A stretch of 35,348 nt of DNA from an uncultured Pelagibacteraceae bacterium (GTDB lineage: Bacteria; Pseudomonadota; Alphaproteobacteria; Pelagibacterales; Pelagibacteraceae): the NCBI GenBank assembly GCA_902523495.1, contig CABYZU010000009.1:1-35348 (forward strand), written 5' to 3'. The stretch's first letter is position 1, and every line of letters begins with the position of its first letter. Made by a program: the position numbers and the translations under genes. Below the pieces are notes generated by a model. The model did no database searches and was not told the origin of the DNA. It saw nothing but the letters and a program-made list of their open reading frames with translations. Of the stretch, positions 19,357-27,783 are shown in pieces.

Positions 19357-20640
19357 ATGATGAAGTTTTTTGAAACTTCAAAATTTCATACGCTCAAAAA
19401 ATCCACCTATATTTCCTTAAGATGGATTGGTATTATTGGTCAGCTATTTTCAGTCAATATTGTTTATTTTTATTTCAATTTTGGGTTTAATTTTTTATTG
19501 GCAAACTTTATAATTTTTGTGGGAATATTAAGTAATTTTTACTTAATTTTTGTATATAATAAAACACAACTTTCGGATAGGTCAGCATTAATTTTTTTAG
19601 TAATTGATATTTTTCAATTAGGATCTTTAATTTATTTGACTGGAGGGGTTGTAAATCCATTTATAGTTTTTTTGTTAATACCAAGTGTGTTTGCTTCTTC
19701 AAATTTAGGCTTTAGAACAAATTTATTGCTTGTGATAACAACTATATTTATAATTATCTTTTTAACTTTTTACTCTGAAAATTTACCTTCACCTTTAAAT
19801 GACAACTTTTATGTAGACTCATATTATTATTATTCTATCCCAGTCGCTTTGATAATTGCTTTAATTTTTTTGAATTATTTTGCTATTGTATTCGGAACAG
19901 AGTCTAGAAAAAGAAAAGAAGCTTTGAGTAAGATGGAGGAGGTAATGGCTCAAGAACATGAGATGTTATCTTTGGGTGGTCAAGCAGCAGCAGCAGCTCA
20001 TTCTTTGGGGACTCCTTTATCTACAATTAAAATTATTACACAAGAACTTAAAGATCAATTAAAAGATAAAAAAGAATTAACTCAAGATATAGAATTATTA
20101 TCGAGTCAAGTTGAAAGATGTAATCAAATATTAAAAAAATTGTCTATAAATCCTGTCGAAAAAGATGACTTTATTGACGAAGATTTAACCTTAAAAGAAT
20201 ATATTAATCAAATAGTTTCCTCTTTCCAGGAAACAAGCAATAAAAACTTTATCCTAAATTTTGATCAAGACTCAAACCCAAAAAAAATTCCTAGATCTAT
20301 AGAGATTATTTATGGTCTAAGAAATTTTATTGGTAACGCTAATAAATTTGCTAATAAAAAAATATTTATAACATTAAAAAGTAACAATGATTATAGTGAA
20401 GTATTTATTGAGGATGATGGAGAAGGCTACCCTAGTGAAATTTTATCAAAAATTGGTGAGCCTTATCTTAGATCGTTAACTGAAAAAAAAAAGGATAAAA
20501 TAGGTCTTGGGTTAGGCATATTTATTGGAAAAAATTTGCTTGAAAAAAATTTTGCTTCTTTGAATTGTCAAAACTCAAAAACAAGATCAGGTGCTGAAGT
20601 TAATATAAAGTGGAGAAATACAGATTTATTAAAACTTTAA
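19357..20640 (+). CDS. regB: RegB/PrrB/ActS-like redox sensor histidine kinase
   Basis: A 427-residue membrane sensor kinase. The N-terminal half has about six hydrophobic helices (roughly 22-180), with the quinone-sensing heptad GGVVNPF at 96-102 that marks the RegB family. The HisKA H-box is [14 protein letters not shown] with His215. The redox-active Cys of RegB has a counterpart at Cys255 (QVERCNQIL). The catalytic domain has the N-box [10 protein letters not shown] (323-332), G1 DDGEGYP (353-359) and G2 GLGLGIF (383-389). In the family, RegB phosphorylates RegA and controls energy metabolism in response to quinone and oxygen state. Here the residue after His is Ser rather than the usual Glu. 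No RegA gene is in the window. It directly abuts gyrB and overlaps convergent cobT by 4 bases. Confidence 0.9.
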
Positions 20641-22439
20641 TGAAATTTTATTTTTTTTTCAAATAATGAGCTCAATTGTGAAATCATTACGTCTCCTAGT
20701 TCATTAACATCTGAAATCTTTATTGCTTTATTATAATACCTTGATACATCGTGACCTATCCCAATAGCAAGTATTTCAATTTCTGATTTGTCCTCGATAA
20801 ACTTTACCATTTTTTTTAAATGTTTTTCCAAAAAATCTCCTGAATTAACTGATAGAGTTGAGTCATCAACAGGAGCTCCATCAGAAATAATCATTAAAAT
20901 TTTTCTTTCCTCTTTCCTTCTTTTAATTCTATTAAAAGCCCATGATATAGCTTCACCGTCTATGTTTTCTTTAAGCAATCCCTCTTTTAACATTAGCCCG
21001 AGATTATTTTTTGCTTGTCTCCAATGTGTATCAGCCCCTTTGTAAACGATATGTCTCAAATCATTTAATCTGCCAGGTGTTTTTGGTTTACCTTTATTAT
21101 TCCAATGCTCTCTACTTTGACCACCTTTCCAATTTTTAGTTGTGAACCCCAATATTTCAACTTTAACGGAGCATCTTTCAAGTGTTCTAGATAGTATGTC
21201 TGCACAAATAGCTGCAATTGTAATTGGTCTACCTCTCATTGAACCAGAATTATCTATTAAAAGTGTAACTACGGTGTCTTTAAAATCTAGATCCTTTTCT
21301 TTTTTGAATGAAAGTGAATTATAAGGATCCATTATTATTCTTGGTAACTTGGAACTATCAAGCAATCCTTCCTCTAAATCAAATTCCCATGCTCTGTTTT
21401 GCTTAGCAAGTAGTTGTCTTTGAAGTTTATTTGCCAGTTTTGTAATAATATCTTGGAAGCCTATTAGTTGTTGATCTAATGTCTTTCTAAGTTTATTTGC
21501 CTCGTCTGCATTTTCAAGATTTTCTGCTTTAATAATTTCGTCAAATTCTGTCGAAAAAATTTTATACTCGATATCTAAATCTCTTAAGTTTTTTTTTTGA
21601 AATATTTGTTCAGAGTTTTGTTTTTCTGTATCTGAGTCTACAATCTGCTCATCAAGTTTATATTCATCTATATTATAATCTGTATCCATACTTGCATCTG
21701 TTTCTTCGTTTTGATCGCGGTCCTTGTTATCCTCAGAATCACTATTATCATTTTCATTAGATGGGTTTTCTTGATTTTCCTCTTGGTTTTCCTCATTGGG
21801 ATACTCTTCATTGTTAGACTCGAAAATATCCATTTCTTGTAAAATTTTAGTAAATCGAGAACTATAAATATTCTGATTCTCTAAATTATTTTTTAAAAAT
21901 TCAATATGGTGAAAAATTGATTTGTCAAAATCTTTTTTCCAAACATTAAGCATTTTTGTGGCGATAGAATTAAAATTGATATTATAAAAATTTTTTAACA
22001 TATATAATTCAAAAGCCTCAATTACAGGGACATCTTCTTTCGATTTAATCTGATCTTTTTTTTTTAGGCTTATTATTTGATTATAATTTTCTATTAAATT
22101 CTTTTCGATTCCCTTTAGCATTTTTGAACCCAAAGTTTCATATCGCACTTTTTCTGCTATTTTATAAAGAGACTTACATGAAGAGTTGGTAGGTGAGTTT
22201 TTTTTGAATATTAAATCGTCTGAAAATTTTTTTTTCAAAGCTCTAGAGTCTGACTCAGCTCTTGCTTTTATAAAATCGTTTCTGGTATTTAAATTATCAA
22301 TCTCAAAATAACTAAAATTTTGAGAATTTTTATCTTTATTATTATTTATTACATTATCAAAATCCTCTGAAATAACCCTTGCAGTAGAGGATAGAGCTTG
22401 TTTGAGCTTTTCTTTTAAAGTTTCAGATTTATTATTCAT
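20637..22439 (-). CDS. cobT: CobT-like cobaltochelatase subunit, VWA domain
   Basis: A 600-residue protein matching CobT, which with CobS (AAA+) and the large subunit CobN inserts cobalt in aerobic cobalamin synthesis. The order is an N-terminal helical region (1-205), a very acidic low-complexity linker (about 207-275, rich in Glu, Asn and Asp), a conserved region (about 287-390, [18 protein letters not shown]), then a C-terminal VWA domain with the MIDAS motif DNSGS (396-400), Thr and Asp metal-site partners further on, and ISDGAPVDD (518-526). The start shares one base with the cobS stop (TAATG), implying translational coupling. No cobN or other corrin gene is in the window, so the cobalamin role is uncertain; a MoxR/VWA-type remodelling role is equally possible. 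Confidence 0.93.
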
Positions 22440-23413
22440 TAAATTTGAATATTCAACAAAGACTCTGGTAATTCTTCACCAAAGCATCTTTGATAGTATT
22501 CAGCGATTATATTCTTTTCAATGTCATCACATTTATTTAAAAATGTTAATCTAAAAGCATAACCAGTATCTTTAAAAATTTCGTAGTTTTCAGCCCAATG
22601 TAATACAGTTCTAGGACTCATTACAGTTGAAATATCACCAGCTATAAATCCTTTTCTTGTTAACGAGGCAACTTTTATCATATTTGAAACTATTTCTTTG
22701 CCTTTTGAATTATTAAGTTCCTTATTTTTACCTAAGATGATTTCCATTTCTTTATCAAGACTTAGATAGTTTAAGGTTGTGACAATATTCCATCGATCCA
22801 TTTGTCCTTGATTTATTTGTTGTGTCCCATGATAAAGACCTGTTGTGTCACCCAAACCAATTGTATTAGAAGTAGCAAATAATCTAAAAAACTTGTTTTG
22901 TTTAATAACTTTATTTTTATCTAGAAGAGTAAAACTACCTTCAGATTCCAGCACCCTCTGAATAACAAACATAACATCAGGTCTACCAGCATCATATTCA
23001 TCAAATACTAATGCTACTGGATTTTGAATAGACCATGGTAATATACCTTCATTAAATTGTGTAACTTGTTTTCCATCTTTTAAAATGATTGCATCTTTAC
23101 CAATCAGATCTATTCGACTGACATGGCTATCTAGATTAACTCTTATACAGGGCCAGTTTAATCTAGCTGCGATTTGCTCAATGTGAGTTGACTTTCCTGT
23201 ACCATGGTAGCCTTGAACTAAAACTCTTTTATTGAAAGCAAAACCTGAGATGATAGCAAGAGTTGTGTCTCTATCAAATTTGTAATTTTTATCTATTTCG
23301 GGAACATATTCGCTTTTTTTTGAAAAAGCGTCTACTTCCATCTTAGACTCAATTCCAAAAGTCTGTTTAATAGAAAGTTTGATATCAGGTAGATTGTTGA
23401 TGTTTGGTGTCAA
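22439..23413 (-). CDS. cobS: CobS-like cobaltochelatase subunit, MoxR-type AAA+ ATPase
   Basis: A 324-residue AAA+ ATPase. Walker A is GYHGTGKST (68-76), Walker B is ALVFDEYD (134-141) and sensor 1 is ATSN (180-183). The N-terminal segment (SIKQTFGIE, then [11 protein letters not shown]) and [11 protein letters not shown] match CobS. CobS and CobT form stacked hexameric rings that power metal insertion by CobN in the known system. It overlaps the J-domain gene by 4 bases (ATGA) and cobT by 1, so the three genes look like one translationally coupled operon. The ATPase site is intact. Confidence 0.95.
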
Positions 23414-23931
23414 TTTTTTTCTCTATATGTATTTTTTAGTTGAGTGTATGCCAAAGTAATTGATTTAAGTTTTTCTTCAAATTTTTTATTCCCAGAATTC
23501 ATATCAGGGTGGAATTTTTTAACAAGTATTTTAAATTTATCATAAATTTTCCCCCATTTAGATCCTACTGAAATACCCAAAATTTCAAATGCTTTAACAT
23601 CTTTATGGCTATATCTAAATTGTCCCATGTGATTAAAATCGCTTTTTAATTTTTCTTTATCTAAATCATCTCTCAAAGTATTATTCCACAAGACTCTAAA
23701 AAAATTGTCTGAAGAACTAAAACTTTGTGTTGGCTTATGCCAAACCATATCTGATTTCAAAAAATTAATTACTTGGTCATCATTCATCCCTGAAAAGTAA
23801 TTCCAATTTTTATTAAATTCTTTAACATGATCTAAACAAAGTAATCGATATTTTTTGCTATTATCTTTTTCAACTGGTGCTTTATATTCACCAATTTTTG
23901 AACAATTATTCCAGTCACAAATATTTTTCAT
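23410..23931 (-). CDS. J-domain (DnaJ-like) co-chaperone with N-terminal Cys/His motif
   Basis: A 173-residue protein. A C-terminal J domain (about 112-173) carries the HPD motif at 141-143 ([10 protein letters not shown]), which stimulates Hsp70 ATPase in this family. The N-terminus has C5-x4-C10 and C32-x2-H35, a plausible small zinc site. I start it at the ATG at 23931 rather than the longer frame from 24045: the extra 38 residues look like translated spacer, would overlap bolA on the other strand by 98 bases, and the [10 protein letters not shown] start places the Cys motif at the N-terminus. It is first in the operon with cobS and cobT (4-base overlap) and 16 bases from the divergent bolA start. 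The context suggests it serves the CobS/CobT complex or its clients, perhaps with DnaK (inference). Confidence 0.88.
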
Positions 23932-23947
23932 GATATAAATATTATAT

Positions 23948-24208
23948 ATGAATATAAACGAATTAATTGCAATCGTAAAAAAAAAATTAGAAAAAAATAT
24001 AAATTTTGAAGATCTTCTAATTGAGGATAAAACTTTTTTGCACAAACATCATATTGGACACGATAGCAGAAAGTTTCATTTAAAAATAAATATTAATTCA
24101 AAAGAGCTTTCAGCTCTCGCTAAAATTGAAAGCAATAAAAAAATTTATAAAATTTTAGATGATGAACTAAAAACTTATATCCATTCTTTACAAATTATAA
24201 TCCATTAA
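23948..24208 (+). CDS. bolA: BolA family protein
   Basis: An 86-residue BolA-like protein. The conserved region is HHIGHDSRKFHLKININSKE (35-54), with the SxHFxlxIvS-type pattern, followed by KIESNKKIYKILDDEL (about 59-74) matching the family helix, normally R...H..vy..L. BolA proteins pair with monothiol glutaredoxins and affect Fe-S cluster handling; some act as regulators. The 16-base AT-only-but-one spacer to the divergent J-domain gene leaves almost no leader. The 3' end overlaps convergent aroB by 21 bases. It is short but recognisable. Confidence 0.88.
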   Translation: MNINELIAIVKKKLEKNINFEDLLIEDKTFLHKHHIGHDSRKFHLKININSKELSALAKIESNKKIYKILDDELKTYIHSLQIIIH

Positions 24209-25859: not shown

Positions 25860-26039
25860 ATGCAATTTACAAGAAAAACAAGTTCTAGCAAAACTATATT
25901 AGGGTTGTTGATTAAACTAACTTTGATTATTTTAGTCCTTATAGGAATTATTTTTCTTTTAAATAAAATAGATTTTCCCGCACCAAAAAAAACGATTGAA
26001 AAAATTATTCCAAATGAAAATTTTAAGATTGTTAAATAA
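25860..26039 (+). CDS. Small single-pass membrane protein, unknown
   Basis: A 59-residue frame from ATG 25860 to TAA 26037-26039. A basic N-terminus (MQFTRKTSSSKT) precedes one strong hydrophobic helix (about 13-34, ILGLLIKLTLIILVLIGIIF), then FPAPKKTIEKIIPNE and a short charged tail. The positive-inside rule predicts N-terminus in, C-terminus in the periplasm. Codon use and composition match the neighbours. The last 26 bases overlap the start of the next gene in another frame. I do not recognise a family. Its support is the shape of the protein, the fact that it fills the space after the aroK promoter region, and the overlap typical of coupled genes here. It may be an inner-membrane partner of the exported protein that follows. 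Confidence 0.6.
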   Translation: MQFTRKTSSSKTILGLLIKLTLIILVLIGIIFLLNKIDFPAPKKTIEKIIPNENFKIVK

Positions 26040-27783
26040 AAAATATTTTTCAATTATAACTATTTTCTTACTTATGATGGTAAACTCTTTTTCAGAAAAC
26101 CAACCAGTTGATATATGGAATATTGATAAAAGTGAAACTCAAGAAAATTTGGAAAATAAAGAATTAAAATCTGATCCAGAAATCAATTTAGAGAAAAATA
26201 GTATTGATGTATTTAATATGCAAAACGATCCTGAAGATCTATTGATTAAAGTAGATGAAACTCTTAATTCGAAAGAAATTAAAATTATAGGTTTATACGA
26301 TCCAGAAGATTTTGGATTAAGTATGGACATGTGGTCTAATTCTAACGGAGACCAACTTAAATATCTTTTCTCTAATTTAGCCAAAATAAATTTATCTAAG
26401 GATGCCGCGGAACTTATGAATATAGTGCTTTTGACTAATGCTTATTATCCAAAAAAAAATATAAGTGAAAAAAATTTTTTAAAAATAAAATCTGACTGGC
26501 TAATGAAACATAATGATTTAGAATTAATTGAAGAATACATAATAAAAAATAATATTATTAATCTCCACCCTAAATTAACAAAATTTTTAGTTGATAATCT
26601 CCTATCAGAGTCCGAACTTAATAAAGCTTGTGAAATATTTTCCAAAAATTCTGAACCTATAGAAAGTCAGTATTTATCAAAATTTAATATCTACTGTTTA
26701 GTTTTCAATGATAAAAAAGAACAAGCAAAATTGATTTTAGATCTCAAAAAAGAATTAGGATTTAAAAATAAGTATTTTGAAAATAAGTTAGATTATTTAT
26801 TTGGTTACATAGATGTTGTTGATAAGTCTATTTCTGAAAAAAATATTTTAGAATTTCATCTAGCACATAAAACTAATGTAGATTTTTCATTTGAACCAAA
26901 CAAAAATACAAATCCATTGATTTGGAAATATTTAGCTACCTCAAATTTATTATATAAAAAAAATGAAATTGATCTGGCTGAGCTAGATAAAATAAAGCTA
27001 ATTGAATATGCTACACATAACAAAAATTACAGTGAAAATGATTTATTTGAAATTTATAAGAGATTTCAGTTCAGTATAAATCAATTCTTAAACTTTAATG
27101 ATGCTTTTAAATCTCTTACAAGCACTGAGAGTAGAGCATTATTGTATCAAAGAATTTTGCTAGAATCTGAAATAAACAAAAAAATGGAATTAATTAAAAT
27201 TTTAAAAAATTTATTTATTCAGGATAACTTAGATAATGCGTTTAAAGACAAACTTAAAGAATTATTAAAAGTATATGATCTAAATCAATTATCATCAAAA
27301 CACACTAGTTTCTATTTGAAATATATTGATGATGAAAAGATTCCAAAAAAAATAAAGTATAATGAGGATTTAATACATCAATCTAAGCTTTTAAAATATT
27401 TTGATGGAGAATATGATATGTCAAAAACACAGAAAGATTTAAATAATTATCTGAAGAAAATCAAAAAGAATAAAAAGTATGTCCTTTCAAAAAAAGATAT
27501 AATTTTGATTGAGTCATTAAAGTCAGACGGAATAAAAATTGATAAAAAGTATAATAACTTATACGAGATATTAGAGTCTGAAATGCCCACAGATATTCAA
27601 GTGATGATAAATAATAATGAGATAGCATCAACAATTTTAAGATTAATTGAAGTTATTGGTCAAGACAGGCTTGAGGCATTAGATGAAGATACATTATTTT
27701 TTATTATTAGCGCTCTGAACCAATTAAACGTAGATACTTTGCGTAACAAAATTTTATTAAAAGTTCTTCCTTTAAAAGTTTAA
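26014..27783 (+). CDS. Exported alpha-helical protein of unknown function
   Basis: A 589-residue protein I do not recognise. A signal peptide fits residues 1-27 (KILRLLNKKYF, then SIITIFLLMMVNSFS, cleavage near FSENQ), which is why I choose ATG 26014 over the upstream ATG at 25996 that only adds six residues in front of the charged n-region. An acidic linker follows (about 28-85), containing DIWN and NDPEDLL. The rest is predominantly helical, without transmembrane segments, with an irregular TPR-like or solenoid look (repeated short Leu-rich helices such as DLELIEEYIIKNN). Probable periplasmic location. It overlaps the 59-residue membrane gene by 26 bases and precedes def by 23 bases. A structural or scaffolding role is speculation. 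Confidence 0.75.
   Translation: MKILRLLNKKYFSIITIFLLMMVNSFSENQPVDIWNIDKSETQENLENKELKSDPEINLEKNSIDVFNMQNDPEDLLIKVDETLNSKEIKIIGLYDPEDFGLSMDMWSNSNGDQLKYLFSNLAKINLSKDAAELMNIVLLTNAYYPKKNISEKNFLKIKSDWLMKHNDLELIEEYIIKNNIINLHPKLTKFLVDNLLSESELNKACEIFSKNSEPIESQYLSKFNIYCLVFNDKKEQAKLILDLKKELGFKNKYFENKLDYLFGYIDVVDKSISEKNILEFHLAHKTNVDFSFEPNKNTNPLIWKYLATSNLLYKKNEIDLAELDKIKLIEYATHNKNYSENDLFEIYKRFQFSINQFLNFNDAFKSLTSTESRALLYQRILLESEINKKMELIKILKNLFIQDNLDNAFKDKLKELLKVYDLNQLSSKHTSFYLKYIDDEKIPKKIKYNEDLIHQSKLLKYFDGEYDMSKTQKDLNNYLKKIKKNKKYVLSKKDIILIESLKSDGIKIDKKYNNLYEILESEMPTDIQVMINNNEIASTILRLIEVIGQDRLEALDEDTLFFIISALNQLNVDTLRNKILLKVLPLKV

Follow-up and report, generated by a model that had tools for sequence, protein, structure and literature searches.

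A CobS–CobT pair retained without CobN in SAR11 bacteria suggests a job outside cobalamin synthesis

Results and Discussion

We analysed a stretch of 35,348 nucleotides (the window) from an uncultured Pelagibacteraceae bacterium of the SAR11 order, in which genes for a J-domain protein (J), CobS and CobT lie beside bolA. CobS and CobT are the textbook partners of CobN in the cobaltochelatase CobNST of vitamin B12 synthesis. SAR11 bacteria retain the pair without CobN or a sign of B12 making, which suggests that it has another job, and we consider a CobN-independent job of CobS and CobT (CobST) very likely. Our reading, to which we assign a probability of about 0.6, is that CobST is an AAA+/VWA (von Willebrand factor A) motor that has a conserved job of this kind and that CobN borrows in B12-making species. 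The gene block itself is ordinary for the class Alphaproteobacteria; what surprises is that it has been kept, under constraint that has not lessened, where CobN and a corrin pathway are absent and no use of B12 was detected.

The cobT gene (20637–22439, reverse strand) encodes 600 aa and matched the Pfam profiles CobT_C (315 bits; 20661–21311, reverse strand) and CobT (127 bits). Its N-terminal CobT domain is followed by an acidic middle and then by a VWA domain with an intact core (DNSGS) of the metal ion-dependent adhesion site (MIDAS). The cobS gene (22439–23413, reverse strand; 324 aa, TTG start) matched CobS_N and AAA_5. Pfam, NCBIfam, PDB relatives and motif columns place its product among the AAA+ ATPases of the CobS/CbbQ/NorQ/midasin group, with Walker A GYHGTGKST (23186–23212, reverse strand; position counted by hand from the translation) and Walker B VFDEYD. 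The closest named CobS, at 95% identity, belongs to uncultured Pelagibacteraceae bacterium AG-910-B05 (SAR11). J (23410–23931, reverse strand) overlaps cobS by 4 bases, cobS overlaps cobT by 1 base, and bolA (23948–24208, forward strand; Pfam BolA, PF01722, 44.3 bits) diverges from J across a gap of 16 bases. These coordinates bear out the layout described in an earlier note on this DNA.

CobS and CobT are kept in the SAR11 order without CobN

The earlier note had seen no CobN or corrin genes near the block and had named cobN with a complete cobalamin pathway in the same genome as the finding that would count against its reading. Neither was found. The CobN/BchH profile PF02514 matched neither the window's own genome (872,558 bases, 75.57% complete) nor any of 247 SAR11-order genomes, and the corrin marker CbiC/CobH (PF02570) was absent from all 147 order genomes searched for it, the own genome among them. 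As controls, 14 well-known genomes were searched, of which PF02514 matched 5 and CbiC/CobH 7. CobT_C was detected in 235 of the 247 order genomes and in 143 of the 149 that are at least 90% complete. Two of the 12 genomes without CobT carry CobS, and their loci end near the match, where contig ends are likely.

The comparison across the class covered 212 alphaproteobacterial genomes, made up of genomes with a completeness of ≥90% and the own genome. CobT was present in 168 of them and CobN/BchH in 85; 83 carried both, 85 CobT alone, 2 CobN/BchH alone and 42 neither. Because PF02514 also catches BchH, true CobN is at most as frequent as these matches. The pair might still belong to an ordinary cobaltochelatase whose CobN and corrin pathway were missed or whose large subunit has much diverged; the own genome is 75.6% complete, and CobS scores above the NCBIfam cobaltochelatase equivalog cut-off (570.2 against 558.55). 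We regard this as very improbable. A profile that matched 85 class genomes found nothing in the own genome or in the 247 order genomes, which disfavours a missed CobN, and the consistent absence of CbiC/CobH from the order speaks strongly in the same direction.

The gene order is common in the class

We compared 81 loci, 21 from the SAR11 order and 60 from the class outside it. The latter were chosen from 165 CobT-bearing genomes (40 of 82 without and 20 of 83 with CobN), and the lowest-scoring CobT genomes, which were without listed coordinates, were left out of this sample. The order with bolA diverging from J, cobS and cobT was found in 20 of the 21 SAR11-order loci, the remaining one being interrupted by a contig end, in 34 of the 40 CobN-less class loci and in 16 of the 20 CobN-bearing ones. 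Co-occurrence of the four genes without cobN, which the earlier note had proposed to check, is thus seen in SAR11 and beyond. The conservation across the class indicates that the arrangement is not due to chance. We rejected a SAR11-specific invention of the locus, as the order is a common alphaproteobacterial one and occurs also in CobN-bearing species. BolA appears here as a divergent neighbour, and any part it has in the system is one that we infer. Among the clusters of neighbouring genes at these loci, none encoding a client enzyme was constant next to cobST; methylmalonyl-CoA mutase and its companion MeaB occurred in a minority.

No visible dependence of CobS and CobT constraint on CobN

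Within the window's family, CobS had the highest mean identity of nine proteins compared (0.885), above GyrB (0.821); J (0.756), CobT (0.678), AroB (0.574) and BolA (0.531) were lower. The CobT motifs DNSGSM and SDGAP were present in 81/81 rows, and a TH[WY] pattern that we also tried was not conserved. In CobS, the Gly, Lys and Ser positions of Walker A were invariant in 76/76 rows; a Walker A pattern missed 7 rows and one for Walker B missed 4, and column counts showed that only variable positions lay behind these misses. If cobS and cobT were a relic, the decaying remains of a lost B12 pathway, one would expect the absence of CobN and of the corrin marker, and CobT does fall below its NCBIfam equivalog cut-off (TIGR01651; 631.8 against 759.05). 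However, CobT has been kept in nearly all genomes of a streamlined order, with no stops within the listed CobT matches from SAR11-order genomes, CobS is more conserved than GyrB, and the catalytic columns are invariant. This conservation refutes decay, and we consider a relic hardly credible.

Columns that are invariant in CobN-bearing species were kept (≥90%) in CobN-less rows at 134/136 positions in CobS and 147/150 in CobT, as also happens when the rows are split at random; for SAR11 the counts are 130/136 and 137/150. By the same measure small proteins were lower (J 11/14, BolA 6/12, AroB 24/28, AroK 22/42). A relaxation of CobN-contact residues in CobN-less species was rejected, since no such CobS or CobT column fell below 70% there. 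The invariant columns are kept without CobN, and so the constraint on CobST shows no visible dependence on it.

A CobS plus CobT tree was built by a quick method from the 76 of 81 loci having both genes; 29 of its 73 inner branches were left open. The CobN-bearing label required 17 changes, against a mean of 17.1 in 500 shuffles, 285 of which needed no more; well-supported branches force at least 8 of the 17. SAR11 formed one clade. The CobN-bearing G277 and the CobN-less G385, members of the same family, have nearly identical CobST. A separate CobN-bearing subfamily of CobST was not seen; CobN presence is scattered over the tree.

B12-dependent enzymes

CobST might serve B12-dependent enzymes such as methylmalonyl-CoA mutase, by cofactor loading or repair, and not B12 synthesis. 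Counts for the two SAR11-order families, the window's own (194 genomes) and a second one (53 genomes), were made by hand. The B12-binding domain PF02310 scored above its cut-off in 76 of the 247 order genomes, comprising 53/53 of the second family and 23/194 of the window's family, where the matching frames are 478–724 aa long. Methylmalonyl-CoA mutase was found near cobT in 17 of the 81 loci and MeaB in 18, both in 6/6 loci of the second family (at L265:2413-5537, for example, the two adjoin cobT); the second family thus uses a B12-dependent mutase without CobN. Across the class, a B12-binding domain scored above the cut-off in 68 of the 85 CobN-less CobT genomes. In the window's family, however, 186 of 194 genomes have CobT and 165 have it without such a domain over the cut-off, which speaks against a general role of this kind, as do 10 class genomes with the domain and without CobT.

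In the own genome we detected no B12-dependent enzyme among those tested, the tests covering the B12-binding domain, QueG and ribonucleotide reductase. A weak B12-binding match proved to be IMP (inosine monophosphate) dehydrogenase. The ribonucleotide reductase is the class I enzyme NrdA, with NrdB adjoining; one relative was examined and likewise has NrdA. QueG was absent from all 21 genomes of the window's family tested for it, and matches to NrdJ stayed below the cut-off in the 21, two of which were examined and rejected as NrdA. Of the 17 CobN-less CobT genomes of the class set in which no B12-binding domain exceeded the cut-off, 14 lie outside SAR11; QueG exceeded its cut-off in 2 of these and NrdJ in 1, and another two gave high NrdJ scores below it (353 and 328 against 400). 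Taken together, service to B12-dependent enzymes appears improbable as the common job of CobST.

The J protein

J comprises 173 aa. Pfam matched its DnaJ domain only, leaving an N-terminal Cys/His module of the form C-x4-C ... C-x2-H uncovered (23707–23922, reverse strand, placed from alignment A1 and the profile match position). The module resembles an undescribed domain. Both the module and the HPD motif were present in 74/74 J homologues; by pattern on trimmed rows HPD was found in 73/74 (the exception being L073), against 74/74 untrimmed. Alignment A1 held 36 of 37 fragments and alignment A2 43 of 46. A PDB search with the module returned no relative at E <0.1. The AlphaFold model shows the J domain (mean predicted local distance difference test score 77.6, predicted template modelling score 0.41); a Foldseek search with it listed mostly J-domain proteins, none at E <0.001. 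Judged from its residues, the module is probably a metal site.

The module was detected in 184 of the 212 class genomes, 159 with and 25 without CobT; 9 genomes have CobT without it and 19 have neither. A strict tie of J to CobST was therefore rejected. In 18 loci with J only, bolA adjoins J in 5 and aroB in 3. The earlier note had coupled J to the AAA+/VWA pair. J is associated with CobST, and its persistence without CobT makes the coupling doubtful; that J acts together with the CobST motor is a tentative suggestion.

Proposed function

The window's CobS and CobT are orthologous to those of CobNST over nearly their full length (PDB 9ujv, 9uka) and share the same motifs, and the locus order recurs in the CobN-bearing species sampled (16/20). 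The CobS features (Walker A and B, CobS_N) and the CobT VWA/MIDAS domain of that system are present. What differs is the lack of CobN and the corrin pathway, with CbiC/CobH missing from the order, and the CobT score below the equivalog cut-off. NorQ/NorD, CbbQ/CbbO and RavA/ViaA are MoxR-type AAA+/VWA pairs. The block resembles these in having an AAA_5 ATPase gene adjoining a VWA gene and in the weak sequence similarity of CobS to CbbQ and NorQ; it differs in that no client enzyme gene is part of it and in its CobS_N and CobT N-terminal domains, which set it on a branch of its own.

We propose that CobS and CobT would form an ATP-driven two-part motor, an action that we infer for SAR11, in which the VWA/MIDAS partner would hold a client and the AAA+ ATPase would drive. 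The old alphaproteobacterial job of this motor would be independent of CobN, corrins and B12; SAR11 would keep that job alone, and in B12-making relatives the motor would have the further task of driving CobN. The likeliest client would be a protein that depends on iron or another metal and is opened or remodelled for maturation or repair, because of the analogy with the MoxR-type pairs and because of a Caulobacter phenotype. In the accessible part of PMC12004947, Caulobacter cobT, labelled a B12 gene, is the exception among copper-fitness genes in that it strongly affects fitness in EDTA (ethylenediaminetetraacetic acid). Caulobacter, one of our control genomes, was positive for CobT and negative for PF02514. 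The main text of PMC8224329, cited for the copper genes, does not name cobT, and the accessible portions of the literature yielded nothing useful on the essentiality of Caulobacter cobT.

The earlier note had suggested that the pair matures another metalloprotein. In so far as this implies a role outside B12 synthesis, it is very probably right, CobS and CobT being intact and conserved without CobN. The metalloprotein client comes from analogy and from the Caulobacter phenotype, and we put it at slightly less than an even chance, with maturation as the best guess. A wider proposal is somewhat more speculative still: an ancestral alphaproteobacterial AAA+/VWA machine may mature or repair a metal-dependent protein that is widely conserved, CobN being a client it can do without, and SAR11 may retain the original function, possibly fed by J with its own metal site.

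Several observations weigh against a conserved CobN-independent motor with a metal-dependent client. No client was found. The Caulobacter phenotype rests on one sentence in the accessible part of PMC12004947, which gives no direction. CobS is nearer to midasin than to CbbQ or NorQ, and its client need not be a metalloprotein. J is kept in 25 of the 44 CobT-less class genomes, which counts against a strict machine of J and CobST. The CobN-less label is clustered on the tree (18 changes, where shuffling gave a mean of 25.6 and reached so low a number once in 500), in part because SAR11 was labelled apart. The B12-binding proteins in 68 of 85 CobN-less CobT genomes make a B12-handling role outside SAR11 possible. 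The earlier note's "undescribed system" does not hold as a SAR11 novelty, the gene order being usual in the class, CobN-bearing species included.

CobST could also be a general remodelling motor, midasin-like and acting on ribosomes, nucleic acids or other complexes, with a client unrelated to metals. Outside cobaltochelatase the best PDB matches of CobS were midasin chains (E 9.9e-25), those to CbbQ and NorQ being weak (~1e-5). The gene for ribosomal protein L28 (rpmB) lies on the downstream side of the block in 41 of the 81 loci, and phage cobS stood near replication or sigma-factor genes in two of three records viewed. The rpmB neighbourhood may be mere inherited order, and in the window and its genus relatives within the family regB takes its place. 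In CobNST, moreover, the same motor serves metal insertion, and the Caulobacter phenotype, as given in part of PMC12004947, arises under chelation. We consider this alternative unlikely, though a serious one.

Phage homologues and orphan chelatase subunits

CobS and CobT likewise occur as a pair in cyanophages, pelagimyophages, CHUG roseophages and haloarchaeal viruses. Phage CobS shared 28.9–33.5% identity with the window's CobS in the best 20 rows, and all 507 records were below 60%; phage CobT matched the C-terminal half or less in 15 records. We viewed three stretches (L261, L262 and L263): in P-RSM4 cobS lies among T4-like replication genes; in RHEph10 it adjoins a sigma-factor gene, with a gene for DNA polymerase III alpha close by; and CRP-810 has a cobS-cobT pair. 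Neither CobN, among the annotated neighbours, nor an evident client was seen in the three. Phage CobST, too, may have a role apart from B12.

Orphan ChlI/ChlD pairs without the large subunit or the pathway, their function called unexplored, are described in the accessible part of PMC9227772. Like the window's pair they are small and medium chelatase subunits without a large one, but in other bacteria; that part contains no mention of orphan CobS/CobT in Alphaproteobacteria. Nor did the portion of the open-access literature covered, most subscription papers lying outside its scope, yield an account of orphan CobS/CobT for SAR11 or for Alphaproteobacteria in general, and novelty is unproven.

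If our reading is right, two subunits known from textbooks for B12 have another main function in a large bacterial class to which SAR11 belongs. CobN-less laboratory species such as Caulobacter offer a way to test this. On the same reading, the presence of cobS and cobT alone should not count as evidence of B12 synthesis. Both appear among others in marker sets (PMC2667541 and PMC8269236, as far as accessible), and cobT is said in part of PMC4303638 to imply the whole pathway, which may mean another enzyme named cobT. SAR11 phages carry cobS and cobT (accessible part of PMC7029224), and viral CobST has been proposed to hijack host CobN (PMC8651126, likewise in part); since none of the 247 order genomes has CobN, this would be weakened for SAR11 phages.

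Other features of the window

A RegB/PrrB-type kinase gene converges on cobT and shares 4 bases with its end (20637–20640), and bolA and aroB overlap convergently by 21 bases (24188–24208). Adjoining aroK, a gene at 25996–27783 (forward strand) encodes a 595-aa protein that has no Pfam or NCBIfam match; its relatives sit in the same neighbourhood in 49 of the 81 loci across the class.

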